Part shown: positions 6,058-17,118 of the stretch, in pieces | Numbering within the stretch: the first letter of the stretch is position 1 | Layout of the letters: each line of letters begins with the position of its first letter | Assembly (NCBI GenBank): GCA_947447005.1 | Contig: CANFHO010000013.1 | Coordinates: forward strand, 1-41,012 | DNA length: 41,012 nt | Origin: Chitinophagaceae bacterium | GTDB taxonomy: Bacteria > Bacteroidota > Bacteroidia > Chitinophagales > Chitinophagaceae | Direction of reading: 5' to 3' | Notes under the pieces: generated by a model | Databases searched by the model: none | Told to the model about the DNA's origin: nothing | The model's input: the letters and a program-made list of their open reading frames with translations, nothing else | Translations under genes and position numbers: made by a program

Positions 6058-7359
6058 TCAATGCATGATCTCAAGTAATATGCTCTTAACGTCTTCATAT
6101 ATTGGTTCAGTAATGATAGATTTTTTTTCACTTTGCATGATTTTCTCAACGTGCTTGGGGACTTCAATCTTTTTTCCAATTATTTTTTCAACAACGGAAG
6201 GGAATTTCAATGGATGTGCAGTTGACAGAATAATTCCTTTTTGCCCAGGATTTTTTTGAAGCCATTGTAACATACCTCCAAAGGCTATTGCCGTATGTGG
6301 ATCTAAGATATAGTTGAAATCTTTATAGACATTTGAAATAATCTCTTCTGTTTGTAAGTCGGAAAAAGCATAACTACTCATATGATTTCGAATCGTATCA
6401 ATATTATGTTCAAACATCTCCAATATTCTTACAAAATTGCTAGGATCGCCAACGTCCATTGCATTTGAAATGGTTTGAGTTGACACTCGTGGTACATAAT
6501 TTCCAGATTCGATATATCTGGTAAAAACATCATTTGAATTGCAAGCTGCAATAAACTGATTTACAGGAAGTCCTGATAGACTTGCCAACAGACCAGCACA
6601 GATATTTCCAAAATTCCCACTAGGTACACAGAAAGCAGGAGGAGTCTCTTGTTCCCATTGAGAAAGGGCAATCGCATAATATATTTGTTGCGAAAGCCAT
6701 CTCGAAATATTGATTGAGTTTGCTGAAGTGAGTAATCCATGTTGTTTTAGGTCTTGGTCGGTAAATGCCATTTTTACCATGCGTTGGCAGTCATCAAAAT
6801 CTCCTTTAACTTCTAATGCATGAATGTTTTGTCCTAGACCGGTTAGCTGTTTTTCTTGAACCTCACTCACTTTTCCTGAAGGATATAAAATGATAACCTC
6901 TGTGCCCGGAACTTTGTAAAATCCGTCAGCAACTGCACCTCCTGTATCCCCACTGGTAGCAACCAATACATAAATTTTCTTTTCTTGAGATTGAGCAAAA
7001 TAACCAAGACATCTGCTCAGGAATCTTGCTCCCAGGTCTTTGAATGCCAGGGTAGGGCCATGAAACAACTCAAGTGAATAAATCGAGTCATTGATTTTTT
7101 TAAGAGGAAATTCAAATGAAAGCGCATCCGCCATGATTTTGTTCAATTCATTCTTTGGTATGCAATCTCCTACAAATGGTTTCATGATTTCATACCCAAT
7201 ACTCACTTTGTCCAATCCTTTAAGACTAGAAATAAAGTCTTTCGACCATAACGGAATATGTTCCGGAAAATACAATCCTTTATCAGGAGCTTGTCCTAAT
7301 ATAGTAGCTTCTTTGAAATCTACTTTGGGTGATCTGCAATTCAGGCTATAGTATTTCAT
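6058..7359 (-). CDS. thrC: Threonine synthase
   Basis: 433 residues, a normal length for the family. It is a PLP enzyme converting O-phosphohomoserine and water to threonine and phosphate, the last step of threonine biosynthesis. The N-terminus MKYYSLNCRSPKVDFKEATILGQAPDKGLYFP is typical of the fungal/bacterial type. The PLP lysine is Lys107 in LFHGPTLAFKDLGARF; downstream VATSGDTGGAVADGF and the phosphate-binding FCVPSGNFGNICAG are conserved. The start ATG overlaps the thrB stop in a 4-bp ATGA, indicating translational coupling. It is the third gene of a thrA-thrB-thrC operon. Confidence 0.97.
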   Translation of the reverse strand: MKYYSLNCRSPKVDFKEATILGQAPDKGLYFPEHIPLWSKDFISSLKGLDKVSIGYEIMKPFVGDCIPKNELNKIMADALSFEFPLKKINDSIYSLELFHGPTLAFKDLGARFLSRCLGYFAQSQEKKIYVLVATSGDTGGAVADGFYKVPGTEVIILYPSGKVSEVQEKQLTGLGQNIHALEVKGDFDDCQRMVKMAFTDQDLKQHGLLTSANSINISRWLSQQIYYAIALSQWEQETPPAFCVPSGNFGNICAGLLASLSGLPVNQFIAACNSNDVFTRYIESGNYVPRVSTQTISNAMDVGDPSNFVRILEMFEHNIDTIRNHMSSYAFSDLQTEEIISNVYKDFNYILDPHTAIAFGGMLQWLQKNPGQKGIILSTAHPLKFPSVVEKIIGKKIEVPKHVEKIMQSEKKSIITEPIYEDVKSILLEIMH

Positions 7360-8285
7360 AGTTCCTCTTCTGTTTGTGTAATTCCTTGTTTGTTGAGTTT
7401 TGTAACATATGTTTTGAAATCTATTCCTACTCGTGTGTAAATTTCCTGCATTATAGATTCTACCTGTAGTGCTGTTTCCAATGATTTATTCAGCATGAAT
7501 ATCGATGGGCCGCTGCCGGAAATACCACCTCCAAGCGCACCTGTAGCAATGCATCTTTTTTTTACTTCATCAAATGCAGGGATAAGTATACTTCTCACTG
7601 GTTCAATAATAACATCTTCCAACGAGCGTCCAATTAATTCATGATCGCCTTTCATGAAACCAGCCACCAGACCTGCAATATTTCCCCATTGTTTAATGGC
7701 TTTTTTCAATGATACTTCTTCTTTTAAAATTTGACGTGCGTCTGATGTTTTTACTTCAATCTGAGGATGAACAACAGTTATAAAAAGTTCAGGCGAATCG
7801 ACTTGAATTATATCCAATGGATAAATAGATCTGATGAGTGTTACCCCTCCTAATAAGCATGGTGTAATGTTATCGGCATGTTTTACCCCGCTCGCTACCT
7901 TTTCTCCATTCATTGCAAAACGTATCAGATCATCCTGACTAAATTGATTATCCAATAGCATATTTGCTGCTTGAACTGCACCCGCTGCACTTGCTGCACT
8001 CGATCCCAATCCGCTTCCAGGTTTGATTTTTTTATCTATGGTTAGTTTGAAGCCATGAGCCAGATTCGCAACATCCATCAATGATAGCAGTGCGGCTCCT
8101 GCCACATTGTTTTCAGGTACGGTTGTAAGATTGTAAGCATCTAGATGTATTATTTCCAGGCCTTTTTTCAGCGTTTTCTCTAGTTTCATCAAATCGTATG
8201 GAGCTTCTAATGCTAGTCCCAATATATCAAAACCGCAAACCAGATTTGCAATGGTGGCTGGTGATTTTATTGTGATTGATTTCAT
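7356..8285 (-). CDS. thrB: Homoserine kinase
   Basis: 309 residues of the GHMP kinase family. It phosphorylates homoserine with ATP to O-phosphohomoserine, the substrate of the adjacent threonine synthase. Visible motifs are the N-terminal SPATIANLVCGFDILGLAL, the glycine/serine-rich ATP phosphate loop GSGLGSSAASA at about residues 90-100, and the C-terminal GALGGGISGSGPSIFML, which is GHMP motif 3. The ATG at 8283-8285 sits 10 bp after the thrA stop, and the gene end overlaps thrC by 4 bp. Length and motifs are ordinary; I see no damage. Confidence 0.96.
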   Translation of the reverse strand: MKSITIKSPATIANLVCGFDILGLALEAPYDLMKLEKTLKKGLEIIHLDAYNLTTVPENNVAGAALLSLMDVANLAHGFKLTIDKKIKPGSGLGSSAASAAGAVQAANMLLDNQFSQDDLIRFAMNGEKVASGVKHADNITPCLLGGVTLIRSIYPLDIIQVDSPELFITVVHPQIEVKTSDARQILKEEVSLKKAIKQWGNIAGLVAGFMKGDHELIGRSLEDVIIEPVRSILIPAFDEVKKRCIATGALGGGISGSGPSIFMLNKSLETALQVESIMQEIYTRVGIDFKTYVTKLNKQGITQTEEEL

Positions 8286-8295
8286 GTGTAATGGA

Positions 8296-10743
8296 TTAAT
8301 TATTTATTGATCTTAATATATCCGCAAATACACCACTGGCCGTTACTTCAGCACCTGCTCCGGCGCCTTTGATTACCAATGGCTGTTCCGCATATCTTTC
8401 CGTTTGAAAGAGTACAATATTGTCTTTCCCATATAAATGATACATTTCGCTTTCTGGAGAAATATGTTGTAAGCCAACTTCTGCTTTTCCATTGTTGAAG
8501 GATGCCACAAATTTTAATTTAGCATTGTTTTTTTGTGCCTCTTGCAGCAATGATGAAAAATGATTTTCATGCTTTGCCAATTCGATATAGAAATCTTCAA
8601 CAGTTCCTTGCATACATGATGCAGGCAAGAAGGAGTTACAAAGTATTTCATCCATTTCCAACGGCATTCCACTTTCTCTGACCAATATCATAATCTTACG
8701 CATTACATCCTTACCACTGAGATCCAGTCTTGGGTCTGGCTCTGTATAGCCTTCAGCCTGTGCTTGCTTTACAACACTGGCAAATGTGTTTTTGCCATCA
8801 TAGTGATTGAAAACAAAATTGAGCGTTCCGCTTAACACGGCATGGATGCTCTTGATGCTATCTCCACTTCTTGTCAAATCATTCAATGTGCCAATGATGG
8901 GCAAGGCGGCTCCTACATTTGTTTCGAAAAGAAATTTGCAATTGTATGAAACAGCCATCTCTTTTAATGACCTGTATACTTCATAGCTGTCAGATGCTGC
9001 AATCTTATTGCATGCTACAACCGACATGGATCTTTTCAGCGCATGTGTATATAGCTGGGGAATCATTTCATTGGCTGTCATATCAACCAATACACTATTT
9101 CTAAGGTTTAAGGAAGTCATTTTTTCTACAAACTTTACAGGGTCTGCTTTTTCAGCGCCATTGAGTTTTTGTTCCCATTTTTCAATGGCGAGACTATCAC
9201 TTGAAATCAACATTTTTCTGCTGTTGCAAAGTCCCTTGATATTTATTTTTAATTTTTGTGATTGCTCAATACTCTCTGCCTGATGGATAATTTGTGCGAT
9301 CAGTTTTCTTCCAACATTTCCTGTTCCGATGATGAAAAGGTTCAATTCTTTTTTTGCACTTTCAAAGAATGATTCATGTAATACATTCAGTGTTTTTTCA
9401 AGGTCAGATGTTTTTATGACTGATGAAATATTTCTTTCGTTGGATCCTTGTGCTATTGCACGAATGTTGATGCCATTCCTTCCCATGGCAGAAAACATTC
9501 TTCCGCTGATACCGGGGTGACTTTTCATGCTATCTCCAACCAATGCTACAATCGTATAGTCGTTTTCAACAAGGATTGGTTCAATGGAACCCTGTGCTAT
9601 TTCAAGTTGGAATTCTGCTGCAAGGCTTTGTTGGGCCAGATTCGCATCTTTATCTAACACCCCCACACAGATCGAATGTTCGGAGGCTCCTTGGGTAATG
9701 AAATTGATATTGATACCAGTATTGTTCAAGGTACTGAACATCCTTTTTGAGAATCCAGGAATTCCAATCATTCCGCTTCCTTCTATGTTGATCAGTGCTA
9801 TCCCTTTCAAATTTGAAATGCCTTTGATGACGTCCCTGTCAGCATTTCCTTTGTCATTGATTATACTACCTTTTTCCTCAGGCTTATTGATATTCTTGAT
9901 GGCAATCTGAATTTTTTTCTTGAATACCTCTTCTAAGGCAGGTGGGTACATGATGCTAGCCTCAAAATGCGAAAGTTCCATGGCTTCTTCATAGTTCAGT
10001 TCTTTGATCACTCTTGCATTTTTTACAAGTGATGTATCGGCCGTAGTGAGGCCATCGTTAGAAGTCCATATTTCAAGCAAGGAAGCATCTTTTAATACAG
10101 CAATAACGGAAGCAGATTGATCTGAGCCCCCTTTTTTCAGATGAAGATTGCTTCCTTTTTTTGATCGTGCAATACCGCCAGGAATGATATAAATAGTTTC
10201 TTTTTGCTGTGGCGACAGGTTTTTCAGATTTGCACTGGATAGCGAAATGTTGATCTGAACGCGACTATCTTTTGTTTCTGCAACGAATATATCCCTGGCA
10301 TCTTGCCAAGTGATTGCATTGTTTTGAGCTTTGGAATAAGCAGCAACCAGGAATGAGTCAAGAATGGCAGCATAACACTGGATACTGTCTAGGGTATTGG
10401 CCGGACATTCACCTATCAGTGATATTCCCTTGCATAGATCATCAATTTCATTAAAACGTTGTTTGATGAAACTGAGTGTGCTGCTTTGTTCTTGCACTGG
10501 AATCAATTTTCTCGCCAAATCGAGGTATTCTTTTTCCAGGATGGCCAATTCATCTGAAAAAGAAGCATGTTTGTTTTCTGCTTTTCGGGCAAGTTCTATC
10601 AATTGTTTTTCCGTTTCAGGGTTGGCGCTGACAATGATATGTGAGATTGAATGATCTGCTAATGAATCATGTATGATGCGTGCAACTTTTATATAGCCTT
10701 CATGGCTGTTGAAAAGACTGCCTTCGAATTTTAAAACTTTCAT
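8296..10743 (-). CDS. thrA: ThrA-type fusion: degenerate aspartokinase domain, ACT domains, homoserine dehydrogenase
   Basis: 815 residues from ATG at 10741-10743 (MKVLKFEGS); the open frame extends to a TTG at 10824 without homology. Order: aspartokinase-like 1-290, two ACT-type regulatory domains at about 305-380 and 395-460, homoserine dehydrogenase 468-815. The dehydrogenase looks intact: NAD(P) loop FIIGTGNVGRK (470-480), NK at 579-580, TNVGAALPIIGTL, and YTEPDPRLDLSGKDVMRK (666-683). It reduces aspartate semialdehyde to homoserine. The kinase half is unusual. The usual KFGG(T/S)S is KFEGSL (5-10), the GE-x-x-S aspartate site is replaced by AAILDS (125-130), LGRGGSD is LKKGGSD, WTDVDG is WTSNDG, and FGAK is FEAS. 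I infer a kinase-dead regulatory domain, with aspartate phosphorylation supplied by another LysC-type enzyme. Confidence 0.92.
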   Translation of the reverse strand: MKVLKFEGSLFNSHEGYIKVARIIHDSLADHSISHIIVSANPETEKQLIELARKAENKHASFSDELAILEKEYLDLARKLIPVQEQSSTLSFIKQRFNEIDDLCKGISLIGECPANTLDSIQCYAAILDSFLVAAYSKAQNNAITWQDARDIFVAETKDSRVQINISLSSANLKNLSPQQKETIYIIPGGIARSKKGSNLHLKKGGSDQSASVIAVLKDASLLEIWTSNDGLTTADTSLVKNARVIKELNYEEAMELSHFEASIMYPPALEEVFKKKIQIAIKNINKPEEKGSIINDKGNADRDVIKGISNLKGIALINIEGSGMIGIPGFSKRMFSTLNNTGININFITQGASEHSICVGVLDKDANLAQQSLAAEFQLEIAQGSIEPILVENDYTIVALVGDSMKSHPGISGRMFSAMGRNGINIRAIAQGSNERNISSVIKTSDLEKTLNVLHESFFESAKKELNLFIIGTGNVGRKLIAQIIHQAESIEQSQKLKINIKGLCNSRKMLISSDSLAIEKWEQKLNGAEKADPVKFVEKMTSLNLRNSVLVDMTANEMIPQLYTHALKRSMSVVACNKIAASDSYEVYRSLKEMAVSYNCKFLFETNVGAALPIIGTLNDLTRSGDSIKSIHAVLSGTLNFVFNHYDGKNTFASVVKQAQAEGYTEPDPRLDLSGKDVMRKIMILVRESGMPLEMDEILCNSFLPASCMQGTVEDFYIELAKHENHFSSLLQEAQKNNAKLKFVASFNNGKAEVGLQHISPESEMYHLYGKDNIVLFQTERYAEQPLVIKGAGAGAEVTASGVFADILRSINN

Positions 10744-10828
10744 GCGATTGGTGATTATATAGTGAACGGTTAGGATAGGAACTTCCTGTGTGTCATGGCC
10801 TAAGCCCAATGGATAATATGGCAAATTT

Positions 10829-10885
10829 CAACCCTTAACGGGTTGTTGTTGTAAATGTGGTAGTCGTTGCAGAAAATATCTGCAA
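10829..10885 (-). promoter_or_regulatory. Paired hairpins in the thr leader (attenuator region)
   Basis: Read on the minus strand, the leader contains TTGCAGA-TATTT-TCTGCAA (10867-10885, 7-bp stem), immediately before the threonine codons, and CAACCC-GTTAA-GGGTTG (10829-10845, 6-bp stem), which includes the last threonine and arginine codons and places the leader stop codon in its loop. A ribosome stalled at the threonine run would cover the space between them, while one reaching the stop would melt the second. This geometry suits translation-dependent control, but I cannot identify the terminator form by eye. Confidence 0.5.
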
Positions 10886-10921
10886 AATTGAGATTACATT
10901 GTATGTTTTTATGACTTCCAC
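10835..10921 (-). CDS. thrL: Threonine-rich leader peptide of the thr operon (putative)
   Basis: A 28-codon frame upstream of thrA, starting at GTG 10919-10921 and stopping with TAA at 10835-10837. Its C-terminal half reads ATTTTFTTTTR: eight of the last ten residues before the stop are threonine, and isoleucine codons also occur earlier. This is the classical composition of thr-operon attenuation leaders (ThrL of Enterobacteria is Thr- and Ile-rich). A TTG at 10883-10885 is an alternative start giving 16 residues. The frame begins ~16 bases after a consensus TAnnTTTG promoter, and 91 bases separate its stop from the thrA ATG. Two hairpins overlap it (10867-10885 and 10829-10845). I see no GC-rich hairpin with a U-run, so the downstream switching mechanism is unclear. 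The composition is directly visible; the regulatory role is inferred. Confidence 0.68.
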   Translation of the reverse strand: MEVIKTYNVISILQIFSATTTTFTTTTR

Positions 10922-10936
10922 GCTCTTTTGATGATA

Positions 10937-10963
10937 CAAATATAATGAAAATCGGGAATTGCA
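10937..10963 (-). promoter_or_regulatory. Promoter of the thr operon
   Basis: On the minus strand TATATTTG at 10937-10944 is an exact match to the Bacteroidota -7 element TAnnTTTG, with a TTG 17 bases upstream as the -33 element. Transcription would begin about 5-8 bases downstream, only about ten bases before the GTG of the threonine-rich leader frame. Confidence 0.65.

Positions 10964-17045: not shown

Positions 17046-17118
<73 letters not shown>

Follow-up and report, generated by a model that had tools for sequence, protein, structure and literature searches.

A putative threonine-sensing leader peptide with conserved RNA elements upstream of thrA in Chitinophagaceae

The thrABC operon of a Chitinophagaceae bacterium is preceded by a short reading frame that ends in a run of threonine codons, followed by RNA elements (hairpin P2, box D, and hairpin P3). 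Sequence comparison among relatives supports the leader and its codon bias, the three RNA elements, and the conservation of all of these. This arrangement probably represents a cis-acting leader of thrABC, in which a ribosome on the Thr-rich peptide senses charged tRNA-Thr and the output lies at transcription elongation or termination.

The window (the whole stretch of DNA analyzed, 41,012 nucleotides) encodes thrA (bifunctional aspartate kinase/homoserine dehydrogenase I, the regulated gene; 8296–10743; NF006959, 878.6 bits with a cut-off of 726), thrB (homoserine kinase; 7356–8285; NF002288, 374.5 bits, cut-off 194), and thrC (threonine synthase; 6058–7359; TIGR00260, 267.3 bits, cut-off 167.1), all on the minus strand. 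The operon behind the leader is, by these family matches, a predicted threonine synthesis operon; ppc is divergent, and the leader lies between thrA and ppc. The kinase domain of the window ThrA carries altered forms (KFEGSL, KKGGSD, and WTSNDG) of KFGGTS, GRGGSD, and WTDVxG, which we take to be the functional motifs of aspartate kinase domains. These motifs are also lost in same-genus loci L096, L104, L106, L109, L110, and L114 and kept in L101, L111, and L115, with a tenth locus, L097, not counted because its reading frame had been set wrongly; the Pfam AA_kinase score is 81.4 bits in the window ThrA versus 161.2 bits in L016, with the Homoserine_dh and ACT_9 scores kept. The domain looks like one retained without catalysis, and the window's genome encodes another aspartate kinase with such motifs (L002).

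The predicted leader peptide frame spans 10835–10921 on the minus strand, with a GTG start (10921–10919), 28 codons (VEVIKTYNVISILQIFSATTTTFTTTTR), and a TAA stop (10837–10835). Its C-terminal end reads ATTTTFTTTTR; nine codons specify Thr, eight of them within the last 11, and four Ile codons lie earlier in the frame. An untranslated stretch of 91 nt separates the stop from the thrA ATG (10743). When 300 nt were searched for the best run of 12 codons, none of 2000 dinucleotide shuffles reached the window's eight Thr, the maximum being six. An earlier note on this DNA, made from the letters alone, had described a Thr-rich frame of 28 codons with a GTG (or TTG) start, ending 91 bases before thrA, and the sequence bears this out.

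A putative promoter −7 box, TATATTTG, is located at 10944–10937 (minus strand), with the leader GTG 15 nt further on and a possible −33 element (TTG, 10964–10962) 17 nt upstream and a putative transcription start near 10931; we take the box to be an instance of the Bacteroidota consensus promoter TAnnTTTG. A strict TAnnTTTG 60–170 nt before the leader stop is found in 13 of 74 leaders, the window among them (5.65 in shuffles and 0 on the opposite strand), and is absent from that interval in the remaining 61; in 10 of the 13 it lies 99–114 nt before the stop (107 nt in the window). The consensus box claimed by the note is present, in a form that is strict in a minority of relatives, and the promoter assignment rests on modest evidence and is less secure than the Thr-rich frame. 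The GTG start, which the note considered unusual, recurs: the first start codon after the box in the 13 boxed leaders is GTG in six, ATG in six, and TTG in one. Translation in Bacteroidia starts largely without a Shine-Dalgarno sequence.

The Thr run is conserved in most of the family loci, which contradicts the lack of conservation that the note had named as grounds for refutation. At least five Thr in 12 codons are present in 74 of 88 same-family thrA upstream regions, versus 4.0% of 1760 shuffles and none of the 88 opposite strands; among the 14 regions that fall short are leaders in which four Thr are accompanied by more Ile. (There were 96 thrA matches, and upstream sequence was inspected for 95, since G135 starts inside the gene; of the 90 family loci, L087, in which the thrA start is not in the match, was left out of the upstream set to give 89, and L051, on a short contig, to give 88.) Thr codons in the family frames are mixed among synonyms (ACA 231, ACC 170, ACT 151, and ACG 51), which points to selection on codons rather than on DNA sequence.

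Two predicted hairpins bracket or include the Thr codons, as had been noted earlier. P1 (TTGCAGA/TCTGCAA; 10867–10885, minus strand) is located just ahead of them (−8.7 kcal/mol; z = −4.66 for the 29-nt stretch), and P2 (CAACCC/GGGTTG; 10829–10845, minus strand) spans the last codons, with the stop codon UAA in its loop. Behind P2, and beyond what the note had seen, are box D (CAUAUUAUC; 10812–10820, minus strand; family consensus CAUAUYAYC) and P3 (U-(G)-GGC UUAG GCC-A, with one bulged G; 10796–10808, minus strand), the latter supported by the covariance model and by pair counts. The whole 195-nt leader is more stable than shuffles (z = −2.33; 3 of 200), and the leader-coding region is more folded than mononucleotide shuffles (z below −1 in 49 of 76 loci; −4.25 in the window). 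The P2–P3 stretch by itself (10790–10851) does not outfold shuffles (z = −1.07; 31 of 200), so that it is supported by comparison among relatives and not by folding energy. On the plus strand (10829–10845), P2 and the TTGTTGT that follows it, which is complementary to the Thr codons, resemble a terminator directed towards ppc and may shield that gene from antisense transcripts.

The compensatory changes that the note had thought worth seeking are found in both P2 and P3. An alignment of 85 rows (A3), in which 91.9% of P2/P3 cells are paired, contains 39 double-changed cells; shuffles give 7.0 (sd 2.3), and slid controls never exceed 11. Four rows are opposite-strand palindrome matches, and their removal leaves 78 distinct rows and still 39 cells. 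A further alignment of 39 rows, some of them shared with the first, has eight such cells versus 0.9 expected; its number of additional pair types is matched by 61 of 500 shuffles and so is unexceptional. Because both alignments had been fitted to the covariance model, these counts are biased in its favor, and relatedness among the rows is not preserved by the shuffles. The sequence of P2 falls into several classes (within the family, ACCC/GGGT and ATCCGC/GCGGAT; elsewhere, CCCC/GGGG and CGGG/CCCG). Its loop holds the stop codon in the window and in many relatives; in some, the stop lies behind the loop. P3 has the general form Y-bulged G-GGC/GCY-R; its outer pair, in 66 rows chosen for P3, is U-G in 33, C-G in 13, U-A in eight, G-U in three, and unpaired in nine. 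These 66 rows are drawn from 89, the 23 omitted being 18 that were weak, duplicate, or lacking the element and five without P3 by pattern; box D conservation among them is partly due to selection, the rows having been located via a loose form of the box. In a comparison that does not depend on this selection, the pattern ATAT[ATC][AG] within 30 nt after P2 is present in 25 of 28 Chitinophagaceae-like leaders (2.3 expected) and 16 of 26 from Flavobacteriia (3.4 expected from shuffles).

A covariance model of the element (R1) is ready for use in annotation. Of 90 family loci, 81 match it immediately before thrA (E ≤ 0.02); 22 of these had gone into building the model. Among loci retrieved through their ThrA from titled public records, 29 of 80 match (E ≤ 0.01), at least five being genomes used before; ten loci of the window's genus in that search were retrieved via the box pattern and are not independent. 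The window's 2.9-Mb genome has one match (E = 4.2e-13; next best 0.5). Nine family loci have no R1 match (L019, L051, L054, L070, L075, L078, L079, L089, and L091), and L087 has one; a Thr-rich frame and hairpin are visible by eye in L019, L054, L075, and L089, and no leader was found in 4 of the 90 (L070, L078, L079, and L091, the last searched over 600 nt upstream). L050, L051, and in part L064 share a similar stretch (GCGACGCAAC...AAAAGCTGGTAT; the end only in L064) that lies either in the interval from leader to thrA or immediately in front of thrA and looks like an inserted repeat element.

With groups assigned from public record names, 45 Chitinophagaceae-like loci include 30 with a Thr leader, 28 with P2 below −3 kcal/mol, and 25 with the ATAT box; 31 Flavobacteriia loci include 26 with a Thr leader, all 26 with P2 below −3 kcal/mol and 16 with the box after P2. 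Leader and P2 extend to Flavobacteriia, and leaders of this type are present in Flavobacterium loci such as L246 and L254. In family f35, four of five loci have a P2 around the stop whose sequence differs (ACGGG/CCCGT and similar), two of the five exceeding shuffles. A leader is also found upstream of thrA in L188. Several families of the class that were examined have no such leader upstream of thrA. A Thr-codon leader recurs in several Bacteroidia families. A class-wide R1 search under strict filters, with few members of the window's family drawn, matched 8 of 296 genomes, four of them from that family; one of the four outside it (G453, L134) lies before thrA, and the others seemingly do not. 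The looser pattern CATATYAYCN{2,5}GGGC matched 30 of 40 genomes, many of its matches being coding coincidences. Two contigs titled Pyrinomonadaceae (L237 and L242) encode ThrA 60–62% identical to the Chitinophagaceae query and are either misbinned contigs or cases of transfer.

The region between leader and thrA in the window has no U-run terminator on the minus strand; the sole terminator-like match is on the opposite strand, and 10744–10795 folds no better than shuffles (z = +0.30). The note's remark that a GC hairpin with a U-run is absent from the leader strand holds. A site corresponding to P4, a weak third hairpin of some relatives a few bases after P3, is located at 10772–10787 (minus strand; AGGA/UCCU, 8-base loop, without a U-run) of the window, where its fold is weak (−2.1 kcal/mol, matched by 3 of 40 shuffles). 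P4 is below −3 kcal/mol in 24 of 76 relatives versus 10.5% of shuffles, and scoring with a U-tail places 33 of 77 in the top 10% (7.7 expected), with 42% U in the tail versus 35% in the region; of the 89 rows, 12 were left out of the U-tail scoring and 13 out of the 76-row tests. The composition of 10744–10785 (31% C, 9.5% G) is compatible with Rho and is no test of it. P2 as the terminator was rejected, because a ribosome at the stop codon would then relieve termination when threonine is plentiful; the P2 of L144 was scored terminator-like by script, as were matches in L173, L178, and L180. A likeness of D–P3 to the complement of the 16S 530 loop was dropped because many D boxes carry C where pairing requires U.

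Strong terminators are present behind Thr leaders in some sister lineages. Family f59 has a Thr leader followed by a terminator in six loci, five by script (−16.0 to −23.1 kcal/mol) and one (L168) by its layout as read by eye; a complement of the terminator 5′ arm was found by script at the leader's end in L163, L164, and L166, and the best scripted complement lies elsewhere in L160 and L169. Within the window's own family, L167, L189, L190, and L191 have the layout of leader, terminator, and complement by eye, with leaders poorer in Thr (two to four in 12 codons, with Ile). By inference from this layout, regulation in the terminator-bearing lineages would lie at transcription termination. These sisters and the main group, which has no visible terminator, form a natural experiment on the output stage of the leader.

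The thr attenuator proposed in the earlier note stands in part. The window has a short frame rich in end-product (Thr) codons, and with Ile codons, before a biosynthetic operon, conserved and with covarying hairpins, one of which, P2, covers the last codons and the stop and would have to be disrupted by a translating or stalled ribosome; it has no intrinsic terminator between leader and thrA, and neither the window nor the family set reveals a mutually exclusive antiterminator helix. The sensing half, a leader whose Thr codons are read by the ribosome, is likely. We infer sensing, direction, and output of the switch as follows. When threonine is sufficient, the ribosome would reach the stop codon inside P2 and hold P2 open; when threonine is scarce, it would stall in the Thr run, which with its final codons supplies the 5′ arm of P2. 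P2 and the RNA that follows (box D and P3, plus P4 in some species) would therefore be in different states under the two conditions, and elongation into thrA would be favored on threonine starvation. Transcription elongation or termination is the most likely point of output, since like leaders in some relatives carry strong terminator/antiterminator pairs; for the exit in the window, a weak or factor-dependent terminator (for example, Rho- or pause-dependent) ranks first. To our knowledge, coupling of ribosome and RNA polymerase has hardly been tested in Bacteroidia.

Possible, though on balance unlikely, is an attenuator without any terminator, in which P2, D, and P3 form a local, put-like RNA switch acting on RNA polymerase or a termination factor, its folding decided by the ribosome on the Thr codons. 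If this were true, a leader with unchanged logic would have exchanged its expression platform inside a single bacterial family.

It is quite unlikely that the leader acts on translation by altering access to the thrA start codon, for example through pairing of box D with AUAUG. Box D does hold CAU, the complement of AUG, and the single-sequence folds of several relatives pair the two, but the D–start duplex (−2.66) is at chance level when compared with shuffles of the 12 nt before the ATG (−2.29) and with other 16-mers (−2.08), and the leader lies at a variable distance from thrA (66 nt in L075 versus 243 nt in L064, for example).

Very unlikely in the window is a complete four-segment attenuator as in E. 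coli thr or trp (1:2, a 2:3 antiterminator, and a 3:4 intrinsic terminator), even if P2 sits where the 1:2 hairpin would, with Thr codons in its 5′ arm. Elements of such a design are seen in Hymenobacter, where P2 surrounds the stop codon in L225 and L229 and where L225, L227, and L229 (four, six, and four Thr in 12 codons, respectively) have 8–11-bp downstream complements and a U-run terminator, all by eye (the pair in L225 is GCGGGCTGC:GCAGCCCGC); yet even these duplexes, with that of L140, are not clearly better than GC-rich shuffles, as 5, 8, 3, and 16 of 60, respectively, give as good a duplex. The window lacks the terminator, and a 2:3 helix is not enriched in 76 relatives: pairing of P2b–D with downstream RNA has a mean z of −0.08, with 8 of 76 in the top 10% (7.6 expected). 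Pairing of the P3 region with downstream RNA fared similarly (mean z 0.22; 6 of 76 in the top 10%), and a P2b–box D helix, which the consensus would allow when read by eye, is unsupported by column covariation. That analysis (66 rows), which could miss helices of variable place and sequence, ranks only the P2 and P3 registers at the top.

Still less probable is that D–P3 is the binding site of a regulatory protein or a DNA operator, with the peptide secondary. Recurrence of box D in Chitinophagaceae and Flavobacteriia, with no pairing partner by covariation, would suit such a site, but P2 and P3 covary as RNA and the Thr run varies synonymously. A functionless ACN repeat arisen by chance, ACA/ACC repeats being simple sequence, has next to no probability and is already contradicted by the shuffles, the family regions, the opposite strands, and the covariation described above.

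Vitreschak and coworkers are said to have treated attenuators, possibly including those of Bacteroidetes, in 2004. In the enterobacterial thr leader, a peptide with Thr and Ile codons precedes thrABC, and its stop codon is near the RNA switch. The window resembles this system (thrL; Rfam RF00506, Thr_leader) in both respects and differs from it in having no U-run terminator and in having box D and P3; we know of no counterpart of box D and P3 in the thr leader. At gathering score, Rfam models give no match at the leader, the only match in the window being a tRNA at 17046; RF00506 is not among the matches at E ≤ 1 in 20 relatives.

Leader-peptide attenuation has already been proposed in Bacteroidota. 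A study of Flavobacterium psychrophilum reports "strong clues" to it before amino-acid biosynthesis operons with structured 5′ regions, a likeness to the present case; it differs in that "thrA" and "threonine" are absent from its main text (PMC9723704). For B. thetaiotaomicron, small frames reminiscent of leader peptides are mentioned (PMC7366714). A thr leader in Bacteroidota is not described in the literature searched, most subscription journals lying outside that search. The Bacteroid-trp RNA (RF01692), described in Weinberg et al. 2010 (PMC2864571), is a Trp-codon leader with a terminator in four loci read by eye. Like the window, it has a leader peptide of Bacteroidota that contains codons for the end product (...NNTWWWSNLRQTS* in L278), and in L278 and L279 a segment at the stop codon can, by eye, pair with the terminator; it differs in its U-run terminator and in specifying Trp, not Thr. 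Under strict filters RF01692 matches none of 60 relatives and 4 of 119 class genomes, with none in the window's genome and none in the window at gathering score. The sister-lineage Thr attenuators (f59, L167/L189, L190/L191, and Hymenobacter) share with the window a Thr/Ile leader before thrA; they differ in that D–P3 is not seen in them by eye, a terminator precedes thrA, and, in part of them, an antiterminator segment lies at the leader's end.
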